Assembly: GCF_001442755.1 (NCBI RefSeq)
Contig: NZ_CP006367.1
Location: forward strand, 3,038,001-3,102,000
Direction of reading: 5' to 3'
DNA from: Aureimonas sp. AU20
Lineage (GTDB): Bacteria > Pseudomonadota > Alphaproteobacteria > Rhizobiales > Rhizobiaceae
DNA: 64,000 bases
The notes below the pieces were generated by a model, which saw only the letters and a program-made list of their open reading frames with translations, made no database searches and was not told where the DNA came from. Shown piece by piece: positions 7,548 to 58,044 of this stretch. Each line of letters starts with the position of its first letter. Positions within the stretch are counted from its first letter, which is position 1. A program made the translations under genes and the position numbers.

Positions 7548-7829
7548 TTGACTTCAACGTTCGACCGGGTTGCCGACATCATCGCCGAAACGAGCGAGAT
7601 CGATCGGGACAGCATCACGCCGGAAAGCCACACGATCGACGATCTCGGCATCGACTCGCTCGACTTCCTCGACATCGTCTTCGCGATCGACAAGGAATTC
7701 GGCATCAAGATCCCGCTTGAGAAGTGGACCCAGCGTGTCAACGAGGGCGAGGCCAACACGGAAGAATATTTCGTGATGAAGAACCTCTGCGCCAAGATCG
7801 ACGAGTTGCGCGCCGCCAAGGGCGCTTGA
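7548..7829 (+). CDS. acpXL: Very-long-chain acyl carrier protein AcpXL
   Basis: A 93-residue acyl carrier protein specialised for building the 27-hydroxyoctacosanoate (C28) chain of rhizobial lipid A. The phosphopantetheine site is Ser37 in [18 protein letters not shown], and the acidic ACP character is retained. The start is a TTG at 7548, set by an AAGGA ribosome-binding site seven bases upstream. It also gives the known AcpXL length and N terminus ([19 protein letters not shown]). It leads the cluster that continues through two ketosynthase-like genes and a dehydrogenase to lpxXL. Confidence 0.93.
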
Positions 7830-7965
7830 GCCGAGCATTGACGAACAGGATGCGCCGGCCGATCCGACGCATCCCCTGAAACGACGACCGACCCTCCGGC
7901 GAGCGCCCCGGCGTTCGCGACCTCGATCCGGCGCCCGCGCGCGCCCGGCTCGCGCTGAGAGACCT

Positions 7966-9165
7966 TTGATGACCCAAGCCGCCCGCGACGTTCTCATCAC
8001 CGGACTGGGACTGGTTTCCTCCCTCGGAGAAGGCGTCGAGGCGCATGTCGCGCGGCTGACCGCGCCGGGAACCCCGCAGCCCGTGCTCGAGGCGGAGCGC
8101 TTCGCCCCTTATCTCCTCCATCCCCTGCCCCAGATCGACTGGAGCCGCCAGATCCCCAAGAAGGGTGACCAGCGGCAGATGGAGACCTGGCAGAAGCTCG
8201 GCGTCTATGCTGCGGGCCTCGCGCTGGAGGATGCCGGCATTCCCGCCGACGAGGCGACGCGCGCGGGCATCGACATGATCGTCTCGGCCGGCGGCGGCGA
8301 GCGGGACCCGGAGGTGGACGCGCTGGTCATGTCGCGCGCGCGCGGCCTCGCCGAGCCGCAGCCCCTGATGAACGAGCTTCTGTCGAGCGAGCTTCGCCCG
8401 ACGCTGTTTCTCGCCCAGCTCTCCAATCTCATGGCCGGCAACATTTCGATCGTCCACAAGGTAACGGGCTCCTCTCGCACCTTCATGGGCGAGGAAAGCG
8501 CGGGCATGTCGGCGGTGCAGATCGCCAGCGCCCGCATCCGCTCGGGCCAGAGCCGGGTCTGCCTGGTCGGCGGCGCCTTCTCGGCCGAGCGCAAGGACCT
8601 TTTGACCAATTACGAACTCGGCGGCTTCCTCTTGCGCGACCAGTGGCTTCCGGTGCCGGGCCGCGCGGGCGAGACGGCTGGCCTCGCGCCCGGCAGCATG
8701 GGCGCCTTCCTGATCCTGGAAGACGCCGAGCACGCGGCTGAGCGCCATGCCACGGCCTATGCCAAGCTGCGCTTCGTGGCGGGCGATCGCGGCGGGCGGG
8801 ACGATTCGGCCTTCCGCCGCCGCTTCGGACGCCTGTTGGACGAGGCGGATGCGCGGGACGAAGAGCTTCTGGTTCTCTCGGGCGCGACGGGCCTCGACGG
8901 GGTGACCGAAGCGGAGACCGAGCTTTTGCGCGAGCACTATCCTCACGCGGCCCATCGCGCCTATGGCACGGCGATCGGCCACGGGTTCGAGGCGCATTTT
9001 CCGGCCGGCGTGGCGCTCGCCGCCGCGCTGCTCGCGGCCCGCAAGCTGCCCTCGCCGGCGGCGGGCGGCGAGGAGCGGCCGGCCGAATTCGAGCCAAAGC
9101 GCGCGCTGGTGACCGGCGTCGGCCATGTGCGCGGCGAAGGCGTCTGCCTGATGGAAGCGGTCTGA
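7966..9165 (+). CDS. Ketosynthase-like protein FabF2XL (active-site Cys replaced)
   Basis: A 399-residue protein with the thiolase/ketosynthase fold, encoded second in the AcpXL cluster. It starts with the KAS signature LITGLGLVSSLGEGV. At the position of the nucleophilic cysteine it has Glu177 (MGEESAGMSAVQIAS aligned with the TACASGASAIQLG of the next gene). The first catalytic histidine motif NAHGTST is also lost (SGATGLDGVTEAE). The second histidine (AIGHGFEAHF) remains. This pattern resembles chain-length-factor (KS-beta) subunits, so I infer a non-condensing partner of the following FabF1XL rather than an independent synthase. The start follows a GAGAG motif; a second ATG lies one codon downstream. 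Confidence 0.85.
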   Translation: MMTQAARDVLITGLGLVSSLGEGVEAHVARLTAPGTPQPVLEAERFAPYLLHPLPQIDWSRQIPKKGDQRQMETWQKLGVYAAGLALEDAGIPADEATRAGIDMIVSAGGGERDPEVDALVMSRARGLAEPQPLMNELLSSELRPTLFLAQLSNLMAGNISIVHKVTGSSRTFMGEESAGMSAVQIASARIRSGQSRVCLVGGAFSAERKDLLTNYELGGFLLRDQWLPVPGRAGETAGLAPGSMGAFLILEDAEHAAERHATAYAKLRFVAGDRGGRDDSAFRRRFGRLLDEADARDEELLVLSGATGLDGVTEAETELLREHYPHAAHRAYGTAIGHGFEAHFPAGVALAAALLAARKLPSPAAGGEERPAEFEPKRALVTGVGHVRGEGVCLMEAV

Positions 9166-9231
9166 GGCGGGCTTCAGCCACCTCACCCACGGATCGGCGC
9201 GGCGCACCGTGCCAGGGACGAAAAGACGATC

Positions 9232-10518
9232 ATGGCTTCAAGCGATCTCGATTTCCTCGGCCGCCCGGTGGTCGCCATCACCGGCATCGGCGTCGTGTCC
9301 TCGCTCGGGCGCGGCGTCGCCGACAATTGGTCGGCGCTGGTGTCCGGCCGCTCCGGCATCCACACGATCACGCGCTTTGCCACCGACAATCTGCGCACCA
9401 CGATCGCCGGCACGGTGGACTTCATGGCCGTCGAGCCTTGGAGCGGCATCGATCTTTCCTATGCGCTGGCGGAAGCGGCCGGCACCGAGGCGATCGCCAT
9501 GGCGGGTCTCGACCCCACCGGTTTCGACGCGCCGCTGTTCCTGGCCGCCCCGCCAATCGAGCTGGAATGGTCGCAGCGCCTGGCACTCGACAAGCTGACC
9601 GGCGAAGCGCGCGAGGAAGCCGGCTATGACCGGCTGATGGAACTCGCCCGCCAGCACCGCTCGCGCGCCGTCTACGACCTCACCCTGTTCGGCGGCATTT
9701 CCGACCGATTGGCCGACAAGCTCGGCACGCGCGGCCTACCCGTCACGCTCTCCACCGCCTGCGCGTCTGGCGCCAGCGCCATCCAGCTCGGCGTCGAGGC
9801 GATCCGGCGCGGCGATGCGGAGCGCTGCATCGCCATCGGCACCGACGGCTCGGTCGGCGCCGAGGCGCTAATCCGCTTCTCGCTCCTCTCGGCTCTCTCG
9901 ACGCAGAACGAGCGGCCGGAAAAGGCCTCCAAGCCTTTCTCCAAGGATCGCGACGGCTTCGTCATGGCCGAAGGCGCAGGCGCGCTGGTGCTGGAATCGC
10001 TGAGCGCCGCTAAGGCGCGGGGCGCCACCATCCTCGGTGTTCTGCTCGGCGTCGGCGAGAAGGCCGACGACTTCCATCGCACCCGCTCCAAGCCGGACGG
10101 CTCGCCCATCATCGCGACCATTCGCGCGGGTCTGGAGGATGCCGGGTTGCAGCCCGCCGACATCGGCTATGTCAACGCTCACGGCACCTCGACGCCCGAG
10201 AACGACCGTATGGAATATACCGGCCTCTCCGCGGTGTTCGGCGACGTGCTGACCGGCGTGCCCGTCTCCTCCAACAAGTCGATGATCGGCCACACGCTGA
10301 CGGCGGCCGGCGCCATCGAGGCGGTGTTCTCGGTGCTTTCCATGCGCGAGGGCACGCTGCCCCCTACGATCAACTACGACCAACCCGACCCGGCCATTCC
10401 GCTCGACATGGTGCCCAATGCCGCGCGCTCGGCCGACGTTTCGGCGGTTCTCTCCAATTCCTTCGGCTTCGGCGGCCAGAACGTCTCGCTCGTGATCGGG
10501 CGCGAGCCGCGTAGCTAG
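9232..10518 (+). CDS. Beta-ketoacyl-ACP synthase FabF1XL
   Basis: A 428-residue FabF-type condensing enzyme with a complete catalytic triad: Cys177 in STACASGAS, His in NAHGTSTPENDRMEY, and the second His in NKSMIGHTLTAAG. It would elongate acyl chains on AcpXL towards the C28 hydroxy acid of lipid A. It lies 66 bases after the inactive-looking ketosynthase and 22 bases before the dehydrogenase, consistent with one operon. It probably works as a heterodimer with the preceding gene product, which is inference from the catalytic residues and order. Confidence 0.92.
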   Translation: MASSDLDFLGRPVVAITGIGVVSSLGRGVADNWSALVSGRSGIHTITRFATDNLRTTIAGTVDFMAVEPWSGIDLSYALAEAAGTEAIAMAGLDPTGFDAPLFLAAPPIELEWSQRLALDKLTGEAREEAGYDRLMELARQHRSRAVYDLTLFGGISDRLADKLGTRGLPVTLSTACASGASAIQLGVEAIRRGDAERCIAIGTDGSVGAEALIRFSLLSALSTQNERPEKASKPFSKDRDGFVMAEGAGALVLESLSAAKARGATILGVLLGVGEKADDFHRTRSKPDGSPIIATIRAGLEDAGLQPADIGYVNAHGTSTPENDRMEYTGLSAVFGDVLTGVPVSSNKSMIGHTLTAAGAIEAVFSVLSMREGTLPPTINYDQPDPAIPLDMVPNAARSADVSAVLSNSFGFGGQNVSLVIGREPRS

Positions 10519-10540
10519 GCTCCAAAGGGTTCATCTCTCC

Positions 10541-11590
10541 ATGCAGGCTCTGCAGCTCGTCGCCGACAAGGATCTTCGCCGCGTCGAGATCGACGAACCC
10601 GGCGCGCCCGGTCCCGGCGAAGTCACCGTCCGCATCCAGGTCGTGGCGCTCAACCATATCGACGTCTGGGGCTGGCGGGGCATGGCCTTCGCCAAGCGCA
10701 AGATGCCGCTGACGATCGGCGCCGAGGCTTCGGGCGTGGTGGAGCGGCTGGGCGAAGGGACGTCCGGCCTCGTGCCCGGCCAGCTCGTGTCGATCTACGG
10801 CGCGCGCACCTGCGGCCTGTGCAAGGCCTGCCGCGAGAAGCGGGACAATCTCTGCGAGCACGTCTCGGGCGTCCACGGTTTCCATCTCGACGGCTTTGCG
10901 CAGGAACGGGTGAACCTGCCGGCCCGCCTTCTCGTCCCCGCCCCTCCGGGCTGCGACGCGGTCGGCGCTGCGCTCGCCCCCGTCACCTTCGGCACCGTGG
11001 AACACATGCTGTTCGACAATGCCAAGCTGGAGCCGGGCGAGACGATCCTCGTTCATGCCGGCGGCTCCGGCATCGGCACGGCCGCGATCCAGCTCGCCAA
11101 GCGCCATGGCGCGACCGTCATCACCACGGTCGGCTCCGACGACAAGATCGAGCCCGCGCGAGCCCTCGGCGCCGATCATGTGATCAATTATCGCACCGAC
11201 CGCTTCGAAGGCGTCGTGCGCAAGCTCACCAAGAAGCGCGGCGTCGATGTCGTGTTCGAGCATGTCGGCAAGGACACGTTCGCCGGCTCCATGCTCTGCA
11301 TGAAGCGCGGCGGGCGGCTCGTCACCTGCGGCTCGACGTCGGGCGTCTCCACCGAGATGAACCTGATGATGCTGTTCCAGCAGCAGCTGAAGCTCATGGG
11401 GTCCTTCGGCTGCCGCATGGAGAACATGGCCGACGCCATGCAGAAGATGGCGCGCGGCTTGGTGAAGCCGGTGATCGACACCGAAGTCGGGCTGGACGAC
11501 ATCGCCGTCGCGCTCGACCGGATGGAAGGGCGCCGCGTCTTCGGCAAGATCATCCTCCATATGGACCGTGGGACCGGCACCGCCGGATGA
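10541..11590 (+). CDS. Zinc-binding MDR-type dehydrogenase of the AcpXL cluster (AdhXL-like)
   Basis: A 349-residue medium-chain dehydrogenase/reductase. The structural zinc loop CGLCKACREKRDNLC (four cysteines) and the nucleotide-binding motif VHAGGSGIGTAAIQLAKRHG are present. In rhizobial AcpXL clusters a gene of this type sits between fabF1XL and lpxXL. Its exact reaction on the very-long-chain acyl intermediate is not settled, but reduction of an enoyl or keto intermediate is plausible. The last codons overlap the lpxXL start (ATGA), showing tight co-translation. Confidence 0.88.
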   Translation: MQALQLVADKDLRRVEIDEPGAPGPGEVTVRIQVVALNHIDVWGWRGMAFAKRKMPLTIGAEASGVVERLGEGTSGLVPGQLVSIYGARTCGLCKACREKRDNLCEHVSGVHGFHLDGFAQERVNLPARLLVPAPPGCDAVGAALAPVTFGTVEHMLFDNAKLEPGETILVHAGGSGIGTAAIQLAKRHGATVITTVGSDDKIEPARALGADHVINYRTDRFEGVVRKLTKKRGVDVVFEHVGKDTFAGSMLCMKRGGRLVTCGSTSGVSTEMNLMMLFQQQLKLMGSFGCRMENMADAMQKMARGLVKPVIDTEVGLDDIAVALDRMEGRRVFGKIILHMDRGTGTAG

Positions 11591-12507
11591 ACCCGACGCT
11601 CGCCAAGGCCTGGAAGATCCAGAAGAAGACGCGCGACTTCCTGGCCGCCAAGGCGCTGTTCGCGATCCTGCGCGTCCTGCGCCTGCTTCCGGCCCGTCAG
11701 GGTCTGGAGGCGGCTGACCGCCTCGCCCGGATGATCGGCCCCCTCACCTCGCGCCACAAGCTGGCGGTCGAGAATCTGAAGCTCGCCTATCCCGAGAAGG
11801 ACGCGGCCTGGGTCGAGACGACCGCCCGCGCCAATTGGGGCCAGATGGGACGCATCGCGGCCGAGTACGTGTTCCTGGACGAGATCTTCGACTTCGACCC
11901 CGAGCGGCCGCCGGGCGAAGGGCTGATCGAGGTCGATGGGATCGACCTCTTCCTGGAACTGCGCGACAGCGGCAAGCCGATCATCTTCTTCACAGGCCAT
12001 CTCGGCTGCTTCGAGCTCTTGCCGATCTGCGCCGCGACCTTCGGTCTCGACGTGACCGCGCTGTTCCGCCAGCCCAACAATCGCTATGTCGCCCGCGAGG
12101 TTCTGGCCGCGCGCAAGACGCGGGGCGGTCATCTTGTGCCCTCCAAGGCGGGCGCGGCCTGGGCGCTTGCCAGCATTCTCGACCGGCAAGGCAAGGTCGG
12201 GATGCTGGTGGACCAGAAATTCGCCAAGGGCGTGCCGACGACCTTTTTCGGCCGCCCCTGCCGCACCAACCCGCTCCTGCCCAAGCTGGCCCGTCAGTTC
12301 GACTGCGACGTCTACCCCGCGCGCTCGATTCGCTTACCCAACGGGCGCTACAGGCTGGAACTGCAGCCCCGGCTCGACCTGACGCGCACGGAGACCGGTG
12401 AGATCGACATCGCGGCCAGCTGCCAACAGCTGAACGACGTGGTGGAAGGCTGGGTACGCGAGCATCCCGACCAATGGATGTGGTTCCATCGCCGCTGGCA
12501 GACGTAA
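11587..12507 (+). CDS. lpxXL: Lipid A very-long-chain acyltransferase LpxXL
   Basis: A 306-residue inner-membrane-associated acyltransferase of the LpxL/HtrB family. It transfers the AcpXL-borne C28 acid onto the lipid A precursor as a secondary acyl chain. The catalytic HX4E motif is HLGCFE (around residue 139). The conserved GxxVDQ-like segment GKVGMLVDQKFAKGVPTTFFGR and the ending PDQWMWFHRRW are characteristic. The start overlaps the upstream dehydrogenase stop by four bases. It is the last gene of the cluster; a gap of 100 bases follows. Confidence 0.93.
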   Translation: MNPTLAKAWKIQKKTRDFLAAKALFAILRVLRLLPARQGLEAADRLARMIGPLTSRHKLAVENLKLAYPEKDAAWVETTARANWGQMGRIAAEYVFLDEIFDFDPERPPGEGLIEVDGIDLFLELRDSGKPIIFFTGHLGCFELLPICAATFGLDVTALFRQPNNRYVAREVLAARKTRGGHLVPSKAGAAWALASILDRQGKVGMLVDQKFAKGVPTTFFGRPCRTNPLLPKLARQFDCDVYPARSIRLPNGRYRLELQPRLDLTRTETGEIDIAASCQQLNDVVEGWVREHPDQWMWFHRRWQT

Positions 12508-17697: not shown

Positions 17698-17929
17698 GCA
17701 GGAATGGTGAAGTCTTCCTTACGATTTCGCAACAGGCCGGGCGCGAGTTTTTTTGCAAGGCGCCTCCCGGCCTTAGGCGAAAGGTCCGAAGGGCGATCAG
17801 CTTTGAAACACCCCTTTTTGCCCGGCTTAGCGCGAGAAAATGCGCTCTTTCGCATGGTCGTTCACTAGTCGTAACCGCGTTCGCGGCAGGATGGGTACAA
17901 CCCGTTCGCAACTTCCGAGACCCGCGGAT

Positions 17930-19663
17930 ATGTCCACGACACCCCTGTCACGTCCGCTTGGCCCTAGGTCCCACCCGTGGCTCTACTGGCTGTCTCGGCG
18001 CGGCCATGGGCCGCTGGTGCTCTTCGTGCTGGCCGCCTGTGTCGTCGGGCTCTCGCTGCCGCTCACCCTGCCGCTCGGCCCGTTCTACTGGGACACGGTT
18101 CTTTACCTCGACGGCGGCAACCGCGTCCTGACAGGGCAGATCCCCTCGACGGACTTCTTCGCGCCGGTTGGCCCGCTCGGCTATTGGCTGTTCGCCGGCG
18201 GGCTTCGGCTCTTCTCGCAGCCACAGCCGCTGCTTCTCGCGCATTGGATGATGTTTCTCGTCACCCTGCCGCCCTTCCTTCCGGTCCTGCTGCGCGTGGC
18301 GAAGGAGCGACCGGCCCTCGCCTGGGGTCTTCTCCTACCGCTCGTGTTCTTTCAGCTCCTGCCCCTGAACGTCGAGCAGTTCTCCACCTTTCCGAGCTTC
18401 GACGGCTACGGGATGTACAACAGGCAGGTGTCGCAGGTTCTCTATGTGCTCGTCGCTGCCCTTCTGTTCGAGCGCCGCGCCGGGCTGCTCCTATTCGCGA
18501 TCGCCTGGTGCTGCACGGCGCTGTTTCTTCTGAAGATCACCGGCTTCATCGTCGCCGGGCTGATCTGCCTTCTCGCCTTCGCGGCGGGCCGCGTGCCGCT
18601 GCGCGTCGCGCTGGGCGCGGTGGCTTGCTTCCTCCTCGTCCTGGCAGGGCTGGAGCTTCGCTTCGCGTTGGTCAGCCGCTACATTCTCGACATCGCGGCG
18701 CTGGTTCGGCTGAACGAGGGCGGCCTTGCCTCGCGTCTGGTTCAGGCCGCGTCGATCCATTTCGGGCTTTTCGGCGCGGGCTGCGCGCTTCTGGTCGGGC
18801 TGCTCGTCATCCAGTGGACCTCGGTGCGCGAGAGGCTGACGGCGCTCGGGGCGCGCCGCGATCTTCCCTCGCTCACCGCCGTGCTGGATCAAGACATCGT
18901 CTGGCTCGTCGTGCTGCTCGCCGGCGGCATTTTCTTCGAGTCGCAGAACACGGGCGATCAGGCCTTTCTCTTCCTCTGGCCGCTGCTCCTGCGCATTCTG
19001 TCGGGGCCGGCGGGGCGCTCCCTGCCCGTTCTCGTACTGGTCGGCGCGGTGGCGCTGCCGCCCTTCGTCAACGTGGCGCACCGGGCGGCGCGCGCGCTGA
19101 TCGGTCAGATCTACTATGTCGATCTGCCGCTGCCCAACCTGAAGATCCTCGCCCAAGTGAACCAGCGGCCCGAACTGGTGGAGCGCGCCGAGGTCAATCT
19201 CGACATTCTCGGCCGCCGCAAGGAAACCTACGAGGCGTTTGCAGAGCACGGGCAGCTGCCGATCTATGCGATGTATGCCGATCTCGATTTCCAGGCGACC
19301 TGGCTGCTGGCGACCGATCAGGCGGTCGCGGCCATCCAGGCCTTTGAGGCGCGGGAGGGCGTGCGGTTCGAGACGATCATGACACTCAACTTCACCAACC
19401 CCTTTCCCTATCTTCTCGACCGTCAGGCGCCGCGACGGATCGCGATTGGGGCCGATCCATCGCGCGCCGTTCCGCCGCCCGACGCGGAGACGATCGCCGC
19501 CGTGCGCGGCACCGATCTCATTCTATACCCCACCTGCCCGATCACGCCCGCCAACATCGCCCTGCGGACCATCTACGAGGCGGGTCTTGCCGGCCACCGG
19601 ACGGTGGAACTCTCGCCCTGCTGGACCGGCTATGTCCGGGAAGGCCTTCTGGAAAACCGGTGA
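17930..19663 (+). CDS. GT-C-like polytopic membrane glycosyltransferase candidate
   Basis: A 577-residue integral membrane protein with about ten hydrophobic helices. Its first periplasmic loop reads YWDTVLYLDGGNRVLTGQI followed by PSTDFFAPVGPLGY, the acidic GQ.P..DFF...GP layout of GT-C enzymes (GT39/GT83-like) that use polyprenyl-phosphate sugars. The soluble C-terminal portion (about residue 390 on) is of unknown type. The frame opens at 17840, but the ATG at 17930 gives a short cytoplasmic N terminus; 17891 is also possible. It faces the polyprenyl-phosphate pentose operon and shares a terminator with it, which suggests it uses that donor. Acceptor unknown. Confidence 0.65.
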   Translation: MSTTPLSRPLGPRSHPWLYWLSRRGHGPLVLFVLAACVVGLSLPLTLPLGPFYWDTVLYLDGGNRVLTGQIPSTDFFAPVGPLGYWLFAGGLRLFSQPQPLLLAHWMMFLVTLPPFLPVLLRVAKERPALAWGLLLPLVFFQLLPLNVEQFSTFPSFDGYGMYNRQVSQVLYVLVAALLFERRAGLLLFAIAWCCTALFLLKITGFIVAGLICLLAFAAGRVPLRVALGAVACFLLVLAGLELRFALVSRYILDIAALVRLNEGGLASRLVQAASIHFGLFGAGCALLVGLLVIQWTSVRERLTALGARRDLPSLTAVLDQDIVWLVVLLAGGIFFESQNTGDQAFLFLWPLLLRILSGPAGRSLPVLVLVGAVALPPFVNVAHRAARALIGQIYYVDLPLPNLKILAQVNQRPELVERAEVNLDILGRRKETYEAFAEHGQLPIYAMYADLDFQATWLLATDQAVAAIQAFEAREGVRFETIMTLNFTNPFPYLLDRQAPRRIAIGADPSRAVPPPDAETIAAVRGTDLILYPTCPITPANIALRTIYEAGLAGHRTVELSPCWTGYVREGLLENR

Positions 19664-19686
19664 GCGTCGGCAAGACCGCGCAAACG

Positions 19687-19721
19687 AAAGGGCCGGGTCC
19701 TCGAAGGACCCGGCCCTTTTT
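19687..19721. terminator. Bidirectional terminator between the glycosyltransferase and the aminotransferase
   Basis: A perfect 15-base-pair GC-rich stem (19687-19701 with 19705-19719) with a 3-base loop, A-run on one side and T-run on the other. It can terminate both converging transcripts. Confidence 0.9.
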
Positions 19722-19748
19722 GCTTGGGCTGGAAGGGGGAAGCTTCGG

Positions 19749-21221
19749 TCAGCCAATCTGCGTCTTCACGAAATCCTTGACGATCGAGACGATGCCTCGG
19801 CCGAGAAGCGCGTCGAGCGCGTCGCAGAACTGGTCGACATGCTCCGGGTCGCAGATCAGCGGCGGCTCCAGGCGGATGACGTTGCGATTGTACTCGGTGA
19901 AGGCCACGAGACAGTCGTAGTCCTTGAGCAGAAGCGCGCCGACGAAGCCCGACAGCGAGCCCTTCAGCTTCTCGTCGAGCAGCGCCACCATCGGCCGAAG
20001 CGCGAAGGGCAGCGTCTGCGAGAAGTCGTGGAACTCCAGGCCCACCATCAGGCCGCGCCCGCGCACATCCTTGACGATGCTAGGATATTTCGCCTGGATC
20101 GCGGTCAGCCTGTCTTTCAGATAGGTGCCGACGGCCGCCGCGTTGCCGATCAGATCCTCGTCGTAAAGCGTATTCAGCGCCTCGATCGAGGTGGCGCAGC
20201 CCTCGCCGATGCCGCCGAACGTGGCGTGGGCGTGGATCATCGCCGTCTTTGGCGTGCCATAGGCCTTCATATAGACGTCGCGGCGCGCGACCATCGCGGC
20301 CATGGCCGCCTTGCCGCCGCCGAAGCTCTTGGCGAGCGCCGTCACGTCCGGGATCACGCCGTGATGCTCGAAGGCGTAGAAGCGCCCGGTGCGGCCGTAA
20401 CCACACTGGACCTCGTCCGCCACCCAGATCACCCGGTGCTGGTCGCAGAGCGCGCGAACGCCCTGCCAATATTCGGTCGGCGCCTCGATGATGCCGCCAC
20501 CGCCCTGCACGGTTTCCAAGACCACGACCCCGACATCGGGATCGGAGCGCACCACGGCCGTCAGCGCCTTCAGGTCGCCAAAGGGCACGCGATAGGTGTT
20601 CTCCACCAGCTTGAAGTCGCCGCGATAGAGCGACGAGTCGGTCAGCGACAGGACGCCCTTGGTCTTCCCGTGGAAGGAGTTCTCGGCATAGACGATCTTG
20701 CAATTGGTGCGGCCCGAGGCGCGCTCGGCGACCTTGATTGCCGCTTCCATGGCCTCCGAGCCGGACGAGCCGAGAAACACCATGTCGAGCTCGCCAGGCG
20801 AGCACGCCGCGACATTCTTGGCCAGCGCCGCCGCATATTGCGACAGGAAGGCGATGGCGATCTCGTGCCGCTTCTCGTCCTGGAACTGCTTACGCGCGGC
20901 GAGGATACGGGGGTGGTTGTGGCCGAAGGCTAGCGAGCCGAAGCCGCCGAAGAAGTCGAGAATCTTCCGGCCGTTCTGGTCGAAATAATACATGCCCTCG
21001 GCGCGCTCGACCTTCACCTTGTGAAAGCCGAGCAGCTTCATGAAATGAAACTGGCCGGGGTTGATATGCTCCTTGAATAGGTCCGCCATGGTGGCGAGAT
21101 CCATCGCCTTGGCCTGTTCGAGGGAGAGCATGGCGGGCTTGGGCGGCCCGCGCCGGGGCGCCGGGGCGGGCGCGTCAGCGGCGTCGAGACGCGGGGCGGT
21201 GGTCATCGGGCGATCAAGCAT
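19749..21221 (-). CDS. Class III PLP-dependent aminotransferase of the polyprenyl-pentose operon
   Basis: A 490-residue class III (ornithine/acetylornithine/GABA family) aminotransferase. The PLP site is clear: GSSGSEAMEAAIK for phosphate binding, the aspartate in VIWVADEVQCGYGRTGRF, and the Schiff-base lysine in ALAKSFGGGKAAMAA. The N terminus carries an extra 40-residue alanine/proline-rich stretch; an alternative start at 21206 is possible. It is the last gene of a five-gene operon with a UbiA fusion, a DprE1-like oxidase, a flippase-like protein and an SDR. That context suggests it acts on a keto-sugar carried by, or destined for, polyprenyl phosphate, but the substrate is not proven. Confidence 0.88.
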   Translation of the reverse strand: MLDRPMTTAPRLDAADAPAPAPRRGPPKPAMLSLEQAKAMDLATMADLFKEHINPGQFHFMKLLGFHKVKVERAEGMYYFDQNGRKILDFFGGFGSLAFGHNHPRILAARKQFQDEKRHEIAIAFLSQYAAALAKNVAACSPGELDMVFLGSSGSEAMEAAIKVAERASGRTNCKIVYAENSFHGKTKGVLSLTDSSLYRGDFKLVENTYRVPFGDLKALTAVVRSDPDVGVVVLETVQGGGGIIEAPTEYWQGVRALCDQHRVIWVADEVQCGYGRTGRFYAFEHHGVIPDVTALAKSFGGGKAAMAAMVARRDVYMKAYGTPKTAMIHAHATFGGIGEGCATSIEALNTLYDEDLIGNAAAVGTYLKDRLTAIQAKYPSIVKDVRGRGLMVGLEFHDFSQTLPFALRPMVALLDEKLKGSLSGFVGALLLKDYDCLVAFTEYNRNVIRLEPPLICDPEHVDQFCDALDALLGRGIVSIVKDFVKTQIG

Positions 21222-21234
21222 CGAAGCTCAGTCC

Positions 21235-22248
21235 TCACTCGGCCGGATGGGGATAGGCGGAGCCGGGAGCCGAGTGCCCCACCTTCTTCGCGCGGTATTC
21301 GCTATAGGCGGCGATCAGCATGTCCTCGTCGCGGTACTGCGGCACCCAGCCGAGATCGCGCTTGCCCTTGGACACGTCGAGAACGCATTCCTCGTCGGCG
21401 ATGAGGTACTGCTCGGGGTCCATCAGGGGCTTGTTCAGCCAGTCGAGGAAATCGAGCGTGCGCTTCACCGCGAAGCCCGGCGTCGGCACGAGGATCGACT
21501 TCGATCCGGCATGGCGCACGAGGTCGCCCAGGAGCTTCCTGACGGGCGGCGGGTTCAGCGAGCCGAGATTGTAGGCCTCGTTCGGCACGCCCGCCTTCCA
21601 GGCCAGGCGCGCGGCCTCGGCGCAGTCGAACACTGAGATGAACTGGTAGGGATTGCGTCCCGAGCCGATCATCGGCACCGGCAGGTTCGCGTCGATCAGC
21701 TTGAACAGCTTTTCCAGAATGCCGAGGCGACCCGGGCCGATGATGAGGCGTGGGCGAAACAGCGAGATGCGCATGCCGCGCTCGCGCCAGTCGGCGGCCA
21801 GATGCTCGGTGTCGAGCTTGGACTGGCCGTACTCGCCGAGCGGAGCGACCGGATGGTCCTCCGTCATGGGCGTGACGACCGTATGGCCGTAGATCATGTC
21901 CGTGGTGAAGTGGACGAGCTTGTGGGCGCCGGCCCGGTCCATCGCCTCCATGATGTGCTTCGTGCCGTCGTAATTGACGGGATAGAAGAAGTCGTGCCGC
22001 TTGGCCCGCACCTGGATCGGCGACAGCATCTTGGCAGACAGGTTGTAGACCATGTCGTCCGGCGCGATCGGCGCGGCCATCACGGCGTCGCGGTCGGTCA
22101 CGTCGAGCGTGAGGTGGCGCACGCTGCCGTAATGCGGCAGGTCGCTCTTGGCAATGTCGAGGACGACGACCTCGGCGCCCTCCTCGGAGAGCTTCTGCGC
22201 GAGATGACGGCCGACGAACCCGTCGCCGCCGAAAATCACATGTTTCAT
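21235..22248 (-). CDS. Extended SDR, NAD-dependent epimerase/reductase family
   Basis: A 337-residue extended short-chain dehydrogenase. The Rossmann motif is HVIFGGDGFVGRHL and the catalytic YxxxK is YGQSKLD, with the serine/threonine partner in HFTTDMIYG. These enzymes epimerise, dehydrate or reduce sugars. In this operon it occupies the place that the classical SDR DprE2 has beside DprE1 in mycobacteria, but it belongs to a different SDR subfamily. The ATG at 22248 overlaps the upstream stop by one base (TGATG); a GTG one codon earlier is an alternative. Confidence 0.87.
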   Translation of the reverse strand: MKHVIFGGDGFVGRHLAQKLSEEGAEVVVLDIAKSDLPHYGSVRHLTLDVTDRDAVMAAPIAPDDMVYNLSAKMLSPIQVRAKRHDFFYPVNYDGTKHIMEAMDRAGAHKLVHFTTDMIYGHTVVTPMTEDHPVAPLGEYGQSKLDTEHLAADWRERGMRISLFRPRLIIGPGRLGILEKLFKLIDANLPVPMIGSGRNPYQFISVFDCAEAARLAWKAGVPNEAYNLGSLNPPPVRKLLGDLVRHAGSKSILVPTPGFAVKRTLDFLDWLNKPLMDPEQYLIADEECVLDVSKGKRDLGWVPQYRDEDMLIAAYSEYRAKKVGHSAPGSAYPHPAE

Positions 22249-22688
22249 CACCGGTTTCCTTCGATCGAATGGGTCTGGGCTTGCGCGGTCTGGGGCGCCT
22301 CGTCCGCCACGGTCTGGCTGCCGCCCCGGGCGATGAAGACCGTGCCGAGGCAGATCAGCGCGATGCCGCCGATGCGCGCGGGCGTCAGCGCTTCGCCGAA
22401 CAGCGTCCAGGCGGCGAAGGCCACCACGACATAGGCCAGCGACAGGAAGGGATAGGCGTAGGACAGCTCGACCTTGGACAGGACGAAGAGGTGCGAGGCC
22501 ATCGAGATCACGAAGGTCAGCAGCCCCAGGAACACGAAGGGGCTGAAGACGATCTGCAGGATCTTCAAAAGCGGATTGACGCCCGCGAAGGACAGCGGAC
22601 CCAGTTGCATCATCCCATGCTTCAGAAGAATCTGCGCCGCCGCGTTGGTGAACACGGTGAACAGGATGAAGGGAATGTAACGGCTCAT
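22248..22688 (-). CDS. Small multidrug resistance/EamA-type membrane protein, probable lipid-sugar flippase
   Basis: A 146-residue protein with four hydrophobic helices in the SMR/DMT pattern, including SRYIPFILFTVFTNAAAQI and YAYPFLSLAYVVVAFA, and a short polar tail. ArnE/ArnF, which flip undecaprenyl-phosphate-aminoarabinose, have the same size and topology. Because it sits between a DprE1-like oxidase and sugar-modifying enzymes, I infer that it moves a polyprenyl-phosphate sugar across the inner membrane. The start is the ATG at 22688; the frame is open 11 codons further. Confidence 0.75.
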   Translation of the reverse strand: MSRYIPFILFTVFTNAAAQILLKHGMMQLGPLSFAGVNPLLKILQIVFSPFVFLGLLTFVISMASHLFVLSKVELSYAYPFLSLAYVVVAFAAWTLFGEALTPARIGGIALICLGTVFIARGGSQTVADEAPQTAQAQTHSIEGNR

Positions 22689-22775
22689 GCGCGCGCCCTT
22701 TCGTTCGAGCGCCCGAACCATGGCGCCGGGGGAACTGTTCGGGAGTTAAGACGGGAATGGTTTTCGCTCACAACC

Positions 22776-24131
22776 TCAACAAACACTTTCTGACGCTGGG
22801 GTAGCGGCGTCGAGGGAGGGAAGCGGCAGTCGAAGCGCCGTGCGCCGCCAGAAGTCCGACAGAAGCGCGGGATCGCGCAGAGCCTCGAGTTCGCGCCAGC
22901 GCGGAAAGGACGCGGCAAAGGTCGCCGGCGCCATGCGCGCGTCCTTGTAGGGATTGACCCGCCCGCCGGCTGCCACGACGATCGCATCGAGCCTATCCAG
23001 AAGCCGTTCGGTCCGGGGACCGAGATGGGGGAAGTCGAGCGTCAGCGTGTAGCCCTCCGTGGGAAAGCTCAGGAGACCGGGGCTTTGGAGAGCGCCGAAG
23101 CGCTTCAGCACGGTGAGGAACGACCCCTGCCCCGCTTCCAGAGCCGTTTCCATCAGCGCGCGCACGGTCTCGGCCGCATGGCGCGTGGGAACGAGGCTCT
23201 GGTGCTGGTGCAAGCCGCGCGGCCCGTAAAGTCGGTTCCAGCCGCCGATCCGGTCCAGCGGGTAGAAGAAGCCATCGAAGGGCACGGTGCGCCGGCTCAT
23301 TCCGGGGCGGGCTTTGCGGAAGTACAGCTCGTTGAACGCGCGAAGGCCCAGGCCCCGCAACGGGCTGACCGGCGGCGTCCAGGGCACGGTGGCGAGCGGA
23401 GGCCGGGCGCGGCCCGTGCGGTCTCCCTCCGCCGCATGGTCGCCGCAGATGAGATGCCCGCGCCCGAAGGAGGTGCCGCGCGCCAGGGAGTCGATCCAGG
23501 CGACGGCGTATTCGTGGCGCTCGTCGGCCGCCTCGGCTCGCTCAAAATAGTCCGACAGGCGGCTGAAACGCTGCGTCGTCTCCAAGATCGACGCGGAGCC
23601 GACGCGCATCAACCGCAGGCGCAGGCGCGTGACGAAACCGGTGAGGCCCATGCCGCCGATCGTGGCGTGGAAGAGATCGGCATTTTCGCTCGCTGAACAA
23701 TGCAGCGTGCCGCGATTCGAACGCTCTAGCTCGAAGCTCTCGACCCAGCGCCCGAACGTGCCCCGGCGGTGGTGGTTCTTGCCGTGGATGTCGTTGGCGA
23801 GCGCGCCGCCCAGCGTGACGAATTGCGTGCCGGGCGTGACCGGCAGGAACCAGCCTTGCGGCACGATCCGCTCCGTCACCTCGCGCAGCAGAACGCCGGC
23901 ATCGGCATCGAGCAGCCCGGTCTCGGCGTCGAACCCGTGGATGCGCGCGCCCTGCGCGGGCGTCAGAAGCCATCCGGAATCGTTGAGGCAGCTGTCGCCA
24001 TAGGAGCGGCCGTTGCCGTGCGGCAGCATCGTCTCGCCGGCCTGCGCCAGCCTGCCGTCAAAGGGCCGTCGCCTGCGCCCGCCCGGCGGCGGCGCGATCG
24101 TCCCGCCCCAGTTGTCGCCGGCATCACGCAT
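22776..24131 (-). CDS. DprE1-like FAD-binding oxidase (decaprenylphosphoryl-ribose 2'-oxidase family)
   Basis: A 451-residue vanillyl-alcohol-oxidase-type flavoprotein closely resembling mycobacterial DprE1, which oxidises C2' of polyprenyl-phospho-ribose. Diagnostic stretches are GNGRSYGDS, LGGALANDIHGKNHHRRGTF, GGMGLTGFVTRL, WNRLYGPRGLHQHQ and NPYKDAR (containing the catalytic lysine). The FAD domain comes first and the substrate domain second. At the position of the drug-reactive cysteine of the mycobacterial enzyme (ICVDFP) it has threonine (LTLDFP). The start ATG at 24131 overlaps the UbiA gene by eight bases; the frame is open further upstream. Confidence 0.9.
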   Translation of the reverse strand: MRDAGDNWGGTIAPPPGGRRRRPFDGRLAQAGETMLPHGNGRSYGDSCLNDSGWLLTPAQGARIHGFDAETGLLDADAGVLLREVTERIVPQGWFLPVTPGTQFVTLGGALANDIHGKNHHRRGTFGRWVESFELERSNRGTLHCSASENADLFHATIGGMGLTGFVTRLRLRLMRVGSASILETTQRFSRLSDYFERAEAADERHEYAVAWIDSLARGTSFGRGHLICGDHAAEGDRTGRARPPLATVPWTPPVSPLRGLGLRAFNELYFRKARPGMSRRTVPFDGFFYPLDRIGGWNRLYGPRGLHQHQSLVPTRHAAETVRALMETALEAGQGSFLTVLKRFGALQSPGLLSFPTEGYTLTLDFPHLGPRTERLLDRLDAIVVAAGGRVNPYKDARMAPATFAASFPRWRELEALRDPALLSDFWRRTALRLPLPSLDAATPASESVC

Positions 24132-25566
24132 AGGCGGCGGCCAGGAAGAGCAGCGCGCCGAGGCCGACCATGATCTGCGAGCGCCAGTCGCGCAGGATGA
24201 AGACCACGGGGTCGTCATGCATCTCGTTGCGCTTGGCGAGAACCCAGATTCGCACGATGATGTAGAGAACCAGCGGGCAAAGCGGCCAGATCAGATAGGG
24301 ATGGGCCTGGAGCTGCCGGATCTCGGCGCTGTCGATGTAAAGCGCCAGAACCAGAACCGAGGCGAAGCCCGAGGCCATGCCGGCCTGCGCCAGCGTGTCG
24401 AGATCGGCGGGAACATAGCCCCGGCCCGTGGTGCGGCGCGAGGCGCCTTCGCCGAACTCGGCCAGTTCGACATAGCGCTTCACCAGCGCCAGCGAGAAGA
24501 AGAAGAACAGCGAGAAGGCCAGGAGCCAGAAGGACCCGACCGTATCGGCCGAAGCGGCGCCCGCCAGGATACGCAGGGTGTAAAGCCCTGCCAGCGTCAG
24601 CACGTCGATCAGGAGCATGCGTTTGAGCGCGAAGGAATAGGCGGTGGTCAGCACGAGATAGATGCCGAGAACGGCGGTGAACTCGATCGGCAAAAGCAGA
24701 CTGAGGCCGAAGGCGGCCACGAACAGCCCGACGCCCGCCGTTACGCCGATCGGTATGGGCACCTGCCCGCTGGCGAAGGGCCGTCGGCGCTTGGTTCCAT
24801 GGCGACGGTCCGCCGCGAGATCCAGAAGATCGTTGAAGATATAGACCGAGGAGGCCGCCATGGAGAAGCAGACGAAGGCCAGCATTCCCGCCAGCACCAT
24901 CGGCACGTCGACATATTCGTGGTTCAGGACGATGGGCACGAAGAGAAGAAGGTTCTTCATCCACTGGTGCGGACGCATCGCCTTGAGAAGGGCGCGGGGC
25001 AGGTTCCCCTCCCCCTGGATCAGCCGGCTGGCGCGCTCGCTTTCCCGGTGCCAGCGCGCGGCCGCCCGGTCCGGCTGGACAACGGTCACGCCCTCGGCGG
25101 CGTCGAACAGGCAGAGATCGTCGCGCGAATTGCCGATATAGTCGAAGGGGGCGCCGGCGCGCTCGGCCGCGATGCGATCGAGCTTGCGCTCGGCGGACAG
25201 ATTCTCGTCCCGGTTGCTGGCGATCACCCGATCGAACAGTCCGAGATGGTCGGCCACGCCTTGCGCCAGCCGCTCGTTGGCGGCCGTGGCGAGAACGATG
25301 GTGCGCCCGGTCTCGCGCTCGGCGCGCAGGGTTTCGACCACTTCCTCGCGATAGGGCCAGGTCGCGGGATCGACCTCGATCCCGGCCGCAAGCTCATGCT
25401 TGAGAACGGACTTGCCGGCCAACAGCCAGCCGAACAGGCGCCAGGCCTGCAAGGGGTTCTGGCGGGCGAACAGAAACAGGCTTTCCCAGAGCAGGTCGCT
25501 GCGAATGAGCGTGCCGTCCAGATCGACATAGAGAGGCCGATCGGTTCTTGCCTGGAGCGTATCCAT
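24124..25566 (-). CDS. HAD phosphatase - UbiA prenyltransferase fusion (polyprenyl-phosphate phosphoribosyltransferase-like)
   Basis: A 480-residue fusion protein. Residues 1-180 form a haloacid-dehalogenase domain (nucleophile motif YVDLDGTLIRSD with Asp15/Asp17; GNSRDDLCLF as the late acidic motif). Residues 195-480 form a UbiA-type membrane enzyme with eight or nine helices. The segments KAMRPHQWMKNLLLF and NDLLDLAADRRH (Asn255, Asp256, Asp259, Asp263) resemble the enzyme that transfers phosphoribose from PRPP to decaprenyl phosphate. The fused phosphatase would remove the 5-phosphate. It is the first gene of the operon, so it probably makes polyprenyl-phospho-ribose for the next gene, the DprE1-like oxidase. 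Confidence 0.88.
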   Translation of the reverse strand: MDTLQARTDRPLYVDLDGTLIRSDLLWESLFLFARQNPLQAWRLFGWLLAGKSVLKHELAAGIEVDPATWPYREEVVETLRAERETGRTIVLATAANERLAQGVADHLGLFDRVIASNRDENLSAERKLDRIAAERAGAPFDYIGNSRDDLCLFDAAEGVTVVQPDRAAARWHRESERASRLIQGEGNLPRALLKAMRPHQWMKNLLLFVPIVLNHEYVDVPMVLAGMLAFVCFSMAASSVYIFNDLLDLAADRRHGTKRRRPFASGQVPIPIGVTAGVGLFVAAFGLSLLLPIEFTAVLGIYLVLTTAYSFALKRMLLIDVLTLAGLYTLRILAGAASADTVGSFWLLAFSLFFFFSLALVKRYVELAEFGEGASRRTTGRGYVPADLDTLAQAGMASGFASVLVLALYIDSAEIRQLQAHPYLIWPLCPLVLYIIVRIWVLAKRNEMHDDPVVFILRDWRSQIMVGLGALLFLAAAYA

Positions 25567-56520: not shown

Positions 56521-58044
56521 TCAATCGTTCTTGTCGGGCGCCGTGAAGGGGCGCACGTTGGATGGCCTGTCCTCGCGCGCGGCGGTTTCCGGCGGCAGGT
56601 CGATGGCCCCTTCGCCATGGCGGCCGCGCGTGGCGCGTTTGAGGCTTTCGTTCTGCCGCTGGAGCGCCGAGCGGCTTTCGCGCGCGATGTCGAGCGCCCC
56701 TTGCGCGAGTGTGCGTTCGGCGCGCTCGTTCTGCAACTCCTCGATCAATCGACGGTTAGCGACCTCGAGCGCCATGCGCTCCTGCTCGAAACGCAGGGTC
56801 AGCGCTTCCACCCGGTCGGTGAGATTGGCGGCGCGCGAATTGACGCTTTCGAGCGAGGCGTCCTTGGCCGCCAGCGCCTTCACCAGCATGTCGCAGCGCG
56901 CTTCCATCTCGTTGCGGCCCTTGTCGGCCTCCTGGAGCATGGTGGAAAGGCGGCCGTTATCGGCGCGCAGGCTTTCCACGCGCCGCTCCAGGGTGGTGCG
57001 GTCGGCCGAAGCCTCCTTCACCGCCCGGTCGGCCGAGCGCACCGTTTCCTCGCGCTCGCGCAGCTGGTTGCGCACCTGCACCAGGATCTGGTCCGTGGCG
57101 GCGAGGCGCGCGCTCAAGGTCTCGATCTTCATGGCCGAGTTGGCGCGCTCGGTCTTCAAGGCGCCGAGATCGGCCTCGTGCTGGGCGACGCTGCGCTGGC
57201 GCGCCGCCTGCTCGGAGGCGAGCTGGGTTTCCAGCGTCGAAATTGTCTGGAGGTTCTGGTCGACCTGCTGCTCGATCTCGTTGAGGCGACCGTAGAGCGC
57301 CACGAGTTCGGCCGACTGCTCCTCGGCCAGAAGCTGCAACCGGCGGTTCTCGCCGTCCAGAATCTGCCGCTTCTCCTCGGTTTCCGACAGCAGCCGCTCG
57401 GCCTCGTTGAGGGCCTGTTCGGAAATCTGCGCCTCGGCGCGCAGCGTCTTCACCTCGAGCGAGAGCGACTGGTTCTGCTCGACCTCGGCTAGGAGCTGCC
57501 GCTCCAGCGCGTTGGCATGGGAGGTGCGTTCGCGCAGCGTCAGGCGCTGCTCGTCCAGGATCGTCTCGTTCTCGCGCAGCGTGGTTTCCAGCCGCCCGAC
57601 CCGGCCGGTCATGGCCGTGAGATCGGCCATCGCCTGCGAGTTGCGGCTGAGAAGATCGTCCACCTCGCGGCGGAGCGACTGGTTGCCGTCGACCTCCTGC
57701 GAATGGAGCGCTTCGAGTTCGAGAACGCGCGCCTTGGTCTGTGAGAGTTCGCCGGCGATCGTCTCGATCGGCGCAATCAGGAGCGAGAAGTCGTCCGTCA
57801 GCGTGCGCAGCTCGCCGAGCCGTTCCGACATTTCGCCGATCCGAACCCGCAGCACCTCGTTGCGCTGCCCGATCCCGTCCAGGGGAGGAAGCGAGGCGGG
57901 CACGGACGTCGTCTCCATCGGAGGGGGTCTCCTGACCGTCTGCGCCTGCGGCGGGATCGGCGCCTGCGCCTGGCCTTCGCCATTCCCAGCGGCTTCAGGC
58001 CGCGGCGAGCCGAGCCGGAGGAAGAAGGACAAAGGTGACGTCAT
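56521..58044 (-). CDS. Large coiled-coil (rod-domain) protein, first gene of a three-gene operon
   Basis: A 507-residue protein. Residues 1-55 are proline-rich and probably disordered. Residues 58-460 are an almost uninterrupted heptad-repeat rod (ETTLRENETILDEQ..., EAERLLSETEEKRQILDGEN...). The tail is basic then acidic (RHGEGAIDLPPETAAREDRP). The layout of a head, a long segmented rod and a short tail resembles bacterial intermediate-filament-like proteins such as crescentin. That is structural resemblance only, since coiled coils score alike for many reasons. No ATPase head is present, so it is not an SMC protein. Confidence 0.75.
   Translation of the reverse strand: MTSPLSFFLRLGSPRPEAAGNGEGQAQAPIPPQAQTVRRPPPMETTSVPASLPPLDGIGQRNEVLRVRIGEMSERLGELRTLTDDFSLLIAPIETIAGELSQTKARVLELEALHSQEVDGNQSLRREVDDLLSRNSQAMADLTAMTGRVGRLETTLRENETILDEQRLTLRERTSHANALERQLLAEVEQNQSLSLEVKTLRAEAQISEQALNEAERLLSETEEKRQILDGENRRLQLLAEEQSAELVALYGRLNEIEQQVDQNLQTISTLETQLASEQAARQRSVAQHEADLGALKTERANSAMKIETLSARLAATDQILVQVRNQLREREETVRSADRAVKEASADRTTLERRVESLRADNGRLSTMLQEADKGRNEMEARCDMLVKALAAKDASLESVNSRAANLTDRVEALTLRFEQERMALEVANRRLIEELQNERAERTLAQGALDIARESRSALQRQNESLKRATRGRHGEGAIDLPPETAAREDRPSNVRPFTAPDKND

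Follow-up and report, generated by a model that had tools for sequence, protein, structure and literature searches.

Which fate awaits the sugar in a locus that pairs enzymes for loading ribose onto a polyprenyl phosphate and oxidizing it with an aminotransferase? The question is raised by six genes within a 64,000-nucleotide stretch (the window) of the 5.21 Mb genome of Aureimonas sp. AU20 (contig NZ_CP006367.1, positions 3,038,001 to 3,102,000). The minus strand carries, from the first transcribed to the last, the genes of a HAD-UbiA fusion protein, a DprE1-like FAD oxidase, a small membrane protein of the small multidrug resistance (SMR)/EamA type, an extended short-chain dehydrogenase/reductase (SDR) and a class III aminotransferase, and the gene of a predicted GT-C glycosyltransferase (P0006) faces them. 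An earlier reading, made from the letters of this DNA without database searches (the sequence-only reading), had described this arrangement, and the open reading frame (ORF) list, the gene caller and the translations find all six genes in place and tightly packed. We propose, with a probability of roughly 0.6, that the block makes a polyprenyl-phospho-2-amino-2-deoxypentofuranose donor, the aminotransferase taking the place of DprE2, after which the donor would be flipped and its sugar transferred.

The proposal derives chiefly from the company that DprE1 keeps. Among 297 genomes of the order, the aminotransferase is present in 14 (E ≤ 1e-120) and DprE1 in 44 (E ≤ 1e-50), and all 14 aminotransferase-bearing genomes fall within these 44 (14/14 as against 30/283 of the genomes lacking the aminotransferase; Fisher p 3e-13, kinship not corrected for), the two genes being at most 5 kb apart in 13 of the 14. 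DprE2, sought with the model NF053786 (E ≤ 1e-30; positive among 14 control genomes in Corynebacterium glutamicum only), was found, among the candidates scored, in none of these 14 and in 29 of the 30 genomes that have DprE1 without the aminotransferase (Fisher p 1.3e-10, likewise uncorrected for kinship). It lies within the ~4 kb fetched around DprE1 in 28 of those 30 and elsewhere in genome G443, and was not detected in G604 (G numbers denote genomes, G000 being the window's own, and L numbers the loci fetched). No DprE2 was found at E ≤ 1e-30 in the window's genome among 46 of its 70 first-look candidates. A second set, comprising the genomes of 69 aminotransferase loci and four more with L021 and L030 left out, showed DprE2 in two of 73 entries (L013 and L014), again among the candidates scored; these entries stand for at most 72 genomes, one of which is also in the order sample, as the genome of L061 (G006) shares the coordinates of G581. 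Since DprE2 and the aminotransferase largely exclude each other, the 'C2'-oxidised, reduced or aminated' pentose of the sequence-only reading can be narrowed: C2' oxidation and a route to amination hold up, and the range, which was too wide, contracts in favor of the aminated sugar.

Dependence on DprE1 extends beyond the order sample. One strong DprE1 (>296 bits) is present in 19 of 19 genomes behind aminotransferase loci, the window's included, with the other listed matches at or below 62.4 bits, and exactly one DprE1 at E ≤ 1e-50 occurs in 54 of 54 further entries behind such loci (50 loci, L005 being left out; G1013 and G1036 have identical coordinates and are thus one genome). Five operons without a DprE1 of their own (L013, L014, L023, L031 and L032) belong to genomes that each carry one elsewhere: inside a UbiA - LPG_synthase_TM - DprE1 - DprE2 - DUF212 cluster for L013 and L014, among unrelated genes for L031 and L023, and at a contig end with a single visible flank for L032.

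A tree built by a quick method from 68 DprE1 proteins (support from the SH-aLRT likelihood-ratio test only; L131 and L134 omitted as repeats of L168 and L161) needs four changes of the DprE2 label, all four forced by its starred branches, and five changes of the linked-aminotransferase label, four of them forced. DprE1 has thus swapped its partner repeatedly, about four times. L062 and L107, which have the aminotransferase, cluster with the DprE1 proteins of L102-L104, in a branch to which 19 of the 29 DprE2-partnered proteins belong. L105 and L106, unlinked DprE1 genes found in aminotransferase-bearing genomes, neighbor four DprE2-partnered ones. The set LPG_synthase_TM - DprE1 - aminotransferase - GT-C of L062, with DUF212 and UbiA, parallels that of L103, the aminotransferase occupying the position of DprE2. 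Conversely, the DprE1 of L175 (G443) is placed inside the aminotransferase group without having an aminotransferase, and the lone DprE2 of that genome is unlinked; tblastn found no aminotransferase remnant in L175 or L169 at E ≤ 10.

The block itself is well conserved. Searching genome contigs with the window's aminotransferase gave 71 loci, the closest being those of Aureimonas ureilytica (95% identity), and the order HADUbiA-DprE1-SMR-SDR-AT (AT, aminotransferase) on one strand is kept in 63 of them, so that the arrangement is not due to chance. The block occurs in Aurantimonadaceae, Rhizobiaceae, Phyllobacteriaceae, Stappiaceae and other families, and its outer flanks differ between genera. 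Exceptions to the order, besides the five operons lacking DprE1, are L061 without the SDR, L062, where DprE1 and the aminotransferase are adjacent and UbiA is on the opposite strand, and L059 at a contig end; in G672 the block is split into HADUbiA-DprE1 and SMR-SDR-AT. The aminotransferase has a narrow distribution: a phylum sample yielded it, at E ≤ 1e-80, in 7 of 398 genomes, none from outside the order, and of nine matches in a class sample of 385 genomes (E ≤ 1e-60) only the window's own and that of G223 (64%) exceed 36% identity. It also adjoins DprE1 in G223, which belongs to another family, and in the metagenome-assembled genome of L062. A homologue of the facing GT-C gene is present in 25 of the 71 loci, and in 23 a member of another family of membrane proteins of ~400 amino acids is found near the block, L018:11518-12735 being one example. 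This example matches no Pfam or NCBIfam family and shows, by eye, an NWD motif following its first hydrophobic segment; the family is possibly a second kind of transferase. Therefore, the five-gene block is the unit and the transferase is exchangeable, and the linkage across Hyphomicrobiales by which the sequence-only reading proposed to test itself is borne out for five genes and not for all six.

What, then, would each protein do? The HAD-UbiA protein (24124-25566, minus strand; PF12710 HAD plus PF01040 UbiA) scores 625 bits against NCBIfam NF006088 (cut-off 351), and its residues 184-383 match 8j8j, a decaprenylphosphoryl-5-phosphoribose (DPPR) synthase, with an E-value of 1e-29, though models of DPPR synthase score it below their cut-offs. 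The NDxxDxxxD motif is present in 69 of 69 orthologues, including the window's. In Citrobacter, a HAD and UbiA domain pair has been assigned polyprenyl-phosphoribose synthesis and removal of the 5-phosphate in the account of Kelly 2024 (PMC11127046). By homology, the UbiA domain would likewise load ribose-5-phosphate from phosphoribosyl pyrophosphate (PRPP) onto polyprenyl phosphate, giving polyprenyl-phospho-ribofuranose-5-phosphate, and the HAD domain would remove the 5-phosphate. The DprE1-like gene (22776-24131, minus strand; PF01565 FAD) overlaps that of HAD-UbiA by 8 bp and has a start further upstream, at 24218, in the ORF list. NF053785 is by far its best family at 329 bits, below the curated cut-off of 500, and the equivalents of Y60, H132, K134, Q334, Q336, K367 and K418 are retained in 36 of 36 aminotransferase-partnered DprE1-like proteins. 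The product would therefore be expected, from these residues, to convert the C2'-hydroxyl of polyprenyl-phospho-ribofuranose to a ketone. These two steps rest on homology to characterized enzymes and on conserved residues, and the amination that follows on comparative genomics.

The aminotransferase (19749-21221, minus strand, 13 bp after the SDR gene) scores 279 bits against the class III family PF00202 (cut-off 30.5), and D269, Q272 and K298, the last being the pyridoxal phosphate (PLP) lysine, are unchanged across 30 aligned sequences; two other aminotransferases grouped into this cluster, L043_13 and L046_12, were dropped. It would aminate the C2' ketone at the point where arabinose makers reduce it via DprE2, yielding polyprenyl-phospho-2-amino-2-deoxypentofuranose. 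Its closest named families are PigE (352 bits, cut-off 850) and putrescine aminotransferase (287 bits, cut-off 612), and we rejected both identities since the scores fall below the equivalog cut-offs. A conserved stretch at residues ~401-437, with an invariant KLKGSL, exceeds its counterpart in putrescine aminotransferase by ~22 residues, and that of PigE is longer still. The predicted structure is weak (predicted local distance difference test score, pLDDT, 70) and served for the fold class only; the two helices that it shows in this stretch could make contact with membrane or lipid. A distant class III aminotransferase (33% identity to the window's) adjoins a distant DprE1-like oxidase (28%) in G345 (L108:8624-11600), with an LPG_synthase_TM-like protein nearby, a GT2 and two GT-C-like genes by eye, and no HAD-UbiA in the stretch; this pair possibly follows the same oxidize-then-aminate logic on another lipid-linked sugar.

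What the analysis establishes is which genes are present, how conserved they are, how they co-occur and exclude one another, and the fold of the P0006 model. The later steps are inferred, as are all the reactions proposed for this organism, the C2 configuration, the identity of the lipid and of the acceptor, and which way transport runs. The SMR/EamA protein (22248-22721, minus strand; PF00892 EamA), whose gene follows that of DprE1 after a gap of 54 bp and may truly start at an internal ATG near 22688, scores 55 bits against ArnF (cut-off 99) and 39 bits against ArnE (cut-off 92), both below the cut-offs; it is a probable flippase, or half of one, and would flip the amino-pentose donor. P0006 (17930-19663, plus strand; start alternatives at 17840 in the ORF list and 18017 by the gene caller) matches no Pfam family. 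Its predicted model (pLDDT 86.8) has ArnT as the best PDB match and AftA among the next, which supports a GT-C glycosyltransferase of the ArnT/AftA fold, and W54, D55 and D61 are unchanged in 17 sequences. As the candidate transferase it would add the amino-pentose to an envelope glycan in the periplasm, a task that may fall to other membrane proteins at other loci. Its gene converges with the block, 85 bp from that of the aminotransferase, and between the two a GC-rich hairpin with an 11 bp stem, a 5 nt loop and a T run (19690-19721), read by eye and absent from the output of an automated scan, is a probable terminator. A sequence scan found no promoter-like sites.

The extended SDR (21235-22248, minus strand; PF01370 epimerase) shares 1 bp with the SMR gene when its start is taken as the ATG, an alternative being a GTG one codon upstream. 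It has the Gly-rich motif in 69 of 70 sequences, the one exception being truncated where its contig stops, and all 70 have YxxxK, the window's protein carrying both. A hopanoid role like that of HpnO was also considered, and here the SDR reaches only 63 bits against TIGR03466 HpnA (cut-off 368). The sequence-only reading let such an SDR set the locus apart from the mycobacterial route, and if it stood in for DprE2 and reduced or epimerized C2', the pathway would lead to plain arabinose or another pentose and the aminotransferase would act elsewhere. Such a role would agree with the position of the SDR beside DprE1 and the aminotransferase in 63 of 71 loci, and in Citrobacter undecaprenyl-phospho-ribofuranose is epimerized by an extended SDR alone, as described in PMC11127046. 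However, the SDR, found in 12 of the 14 aminotransferase-bearing and 2 of the 283 other genomes of the order sample, is missing beside the aminotransferase in G559 and G581 and in loci L061, L161 and L062 (for L062 the locus alone was searched for it), and DprE2 was detected neither in G559 and G581 nor in the genomes of these three loci. Of the two genomes with the SDR and without the aminotransferase, G628 (45% identity) has no DprE1, and G443 (67%) still has DprE2. This double dissociation led us to reject the SDR as a stand-in for DprE2, a role that we consider unlikely; it is probably not the substitute, and the aminotransferase is the constant new partner. Of the polyprenyl-phosphate pentose system that the sequence-only reading drew, C2' oxidation, the aminotransferase, the flippase candidate and the GT-C enzyme stand, and the SDR is probably not what fills the role of DprE2. 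The SDR is more plausibly an accessory, optional for tailoring, and possibly a C3 epimerase in analogy to ORF13 of Citrobacter, a comparison made by description and not by sequence: there, a GalE-like SDR sets the ribofuranose or xylofuranose outcome according to nuclear magnetic resonance of a mutant (Kelly 2024, PMC11127046).

Two further explanations leave C2 untouched by the aminotransferase. It might aminate another carbon, either C3 after oxidation by the SDR, whose gene usually adjoins its own, or C5 after oxidation by another enzyme; PigE and putrescine aminotransferase, its closest named relatives, act on terminal aldehydes or amines. Yet it occurs without the SDR in G559 and G581 and, in the genomes searched, never without DprE1 (14/14, 19/19 and 54/54), and we give this explanation little weight, less than the SDR in DprE2's role. 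The locus might also be an ordinary arabinofuranose system in which the aminotransferase and the SDR are passengers and a general reductase replaces DprE2, most of these genomes having dozens of SDR candidates by a first-look count. Passengers would hardly account for a block with its order preserved in 63 of 71 loci or for the recurrence of the aminotransferase beside DprE1 in L062 and in G223, and this explanation is quite improbable.

Amination at C2 has several points against it as well. None of the 297 genomes of the order has a match that reaches the curated cut-off for DprE1, and none of the 44 with DprE1 has one that reaches that for DprE2 (250 bits), the DprE2 matches being homologues at 148-206 bits, so that both names rest on E-values in these bacteria; the DprE1-like, SMR and aminotransferase proteins of the window also stay below the cut-offs of all NCBIfam families listed. 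The DprE2 counts cover candidates scored up to a maximum number per genome. Exclusion is not absolute, for L013 and L014 have the aminotransferase together with a UbiA-DprE1-DprE2 cluster; as DprE1 is missing from their aminotransferase operon, the DprE1 of the arabinose-type cluster may serve both pathways. When phylogeny is corrected for, five independent pairs remain, in which DprE2 is opposite in 3-4 and never the same (sign test, p 0.125), and with so few pairs the exclusion is suggestive and alone not significant. G604 has a DprE1 match with neither aminotransferase nor DprE2 detected in its genome, although this protein (L169:9718-11052) lacks the equivalents of H132, K134 and K367 and is probably a different or dead enzyme. 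The facing GT-C is not constant among the loci, and known nucleotide-sugar aminotransferases belong mostly to another class. In open-licence PubMed Central, our searches turned up neither a description of DprE1 alongside an aminotransferase nor one of such an amino-pentofuranose, a silence that fits novelty and yet leaves the proposal short of chemical support.

We nevertheless lean towards transamination as a third fate of C2 of polyprenyl-phospho-ribose, besides ribose or arabinose, in Aurantimonadaceae, parts of Rhizobiaceae and Stappiaceae and a few others, which would provide an undescribed donor for aminopentosylation of the envelope in the periplasm. If so, a new amino-sugar donor, differing by -0.984 Da from polyprenyl-phospho-pentose, would arise by a route newly branching off at the DprE1 ketone, in the step blocked by antitubercular DprE1 inhibitors, and cells of Aureimonas, Aurantimonas, Jiella and some relatives of Rhizobium and Roseibium would be expected to display an amino-furanose at their surface. 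Elsewhere in the window, an acyl carrier protein (by eye), ketoacyl synthases, a zinc dehydrogenase and a lipid A acyltransferase are encoded in a row (7548-12507), which we take to resemble the rhizobial locus for very-long-chain fatty acids of lipid A, and a crescentin rod-domain protein (56521-57918; PF19220, E-value 1.7e-119) represents an intermediate-filament-like cell shape gene.

Among known systems, the mycobacterial decaprenyl-phospho-arabinose pathway (Rv3806c, Rv3807c, DprE1, DprE2, Rv3789, Emb/Aft) resembles the block in its UbiA-type phosphoribosyltransferase, SMR-type exporter and GT-C enzymes, and the DprE1-like oxidase of the block keeps the active-site lysine and histidine. 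The block differs in that no DprE2 was detected with it and a class III aminotransferase is there instead, the HAD domain is fused to UbiA, and an extended SDR is added. The Arn system of undecaprenyl-phospho-4-amino-arabinose likewise has a lipid-linked amino-pentose (in the block a predicted one), and shares the ArnE/F-like flippase candidate and the ArnT-fold GT-C. Its amine is made at C4 on a UDP-sugar by another class of aminotransferase, whereas in the block the sugar would come from PRPP and be aminated on the lipid, presumably at C2. The three-component pentofuranose systems of Citrobacter youngae O1/O2 (Kelly 2024, GT136, PMC11127046) have HAD-UbiA, a flippase, a GT-C and an optional SDR epimerase as the block does, the GT-C label of P0006 coming from its modelled fold. 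The block has an SMR protein instead of a multidrug and toxic compound extrusion (MATE) flippase, plus DprE1 and the aminotransferase, an enzyme that the main text of Kelly 2024 (PMC11127046) does not mention; no MATE flippase is present in the block, where the candidate is SMR/EamA, MATE genes elsewhere in the genome not having been searched for. With neither a detected DprE2, which defines arabinose synthesis, nor the MATE flippase of the Citrobacter system inside it, the block is set apart from both of its closest relatives. The chemistry has a precedent in antibiotic biosynthesis, where GenQ/GenB1 and Neo11/Neo18 act as flavin dehydrogenase and then class III aminotransferase on a sugar, one intermediate of GenQ/GenB1 being a ketone in the description of PMC4039129. 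Those enzymes work at C6' of antibiotic intermediates with no lipid carrier, and it is because this pairing of a flavin dehydrogenase with a class III aminotransferase exists that we read the block as plausibly leading from PRPP through ribose and a ketone to an amine.

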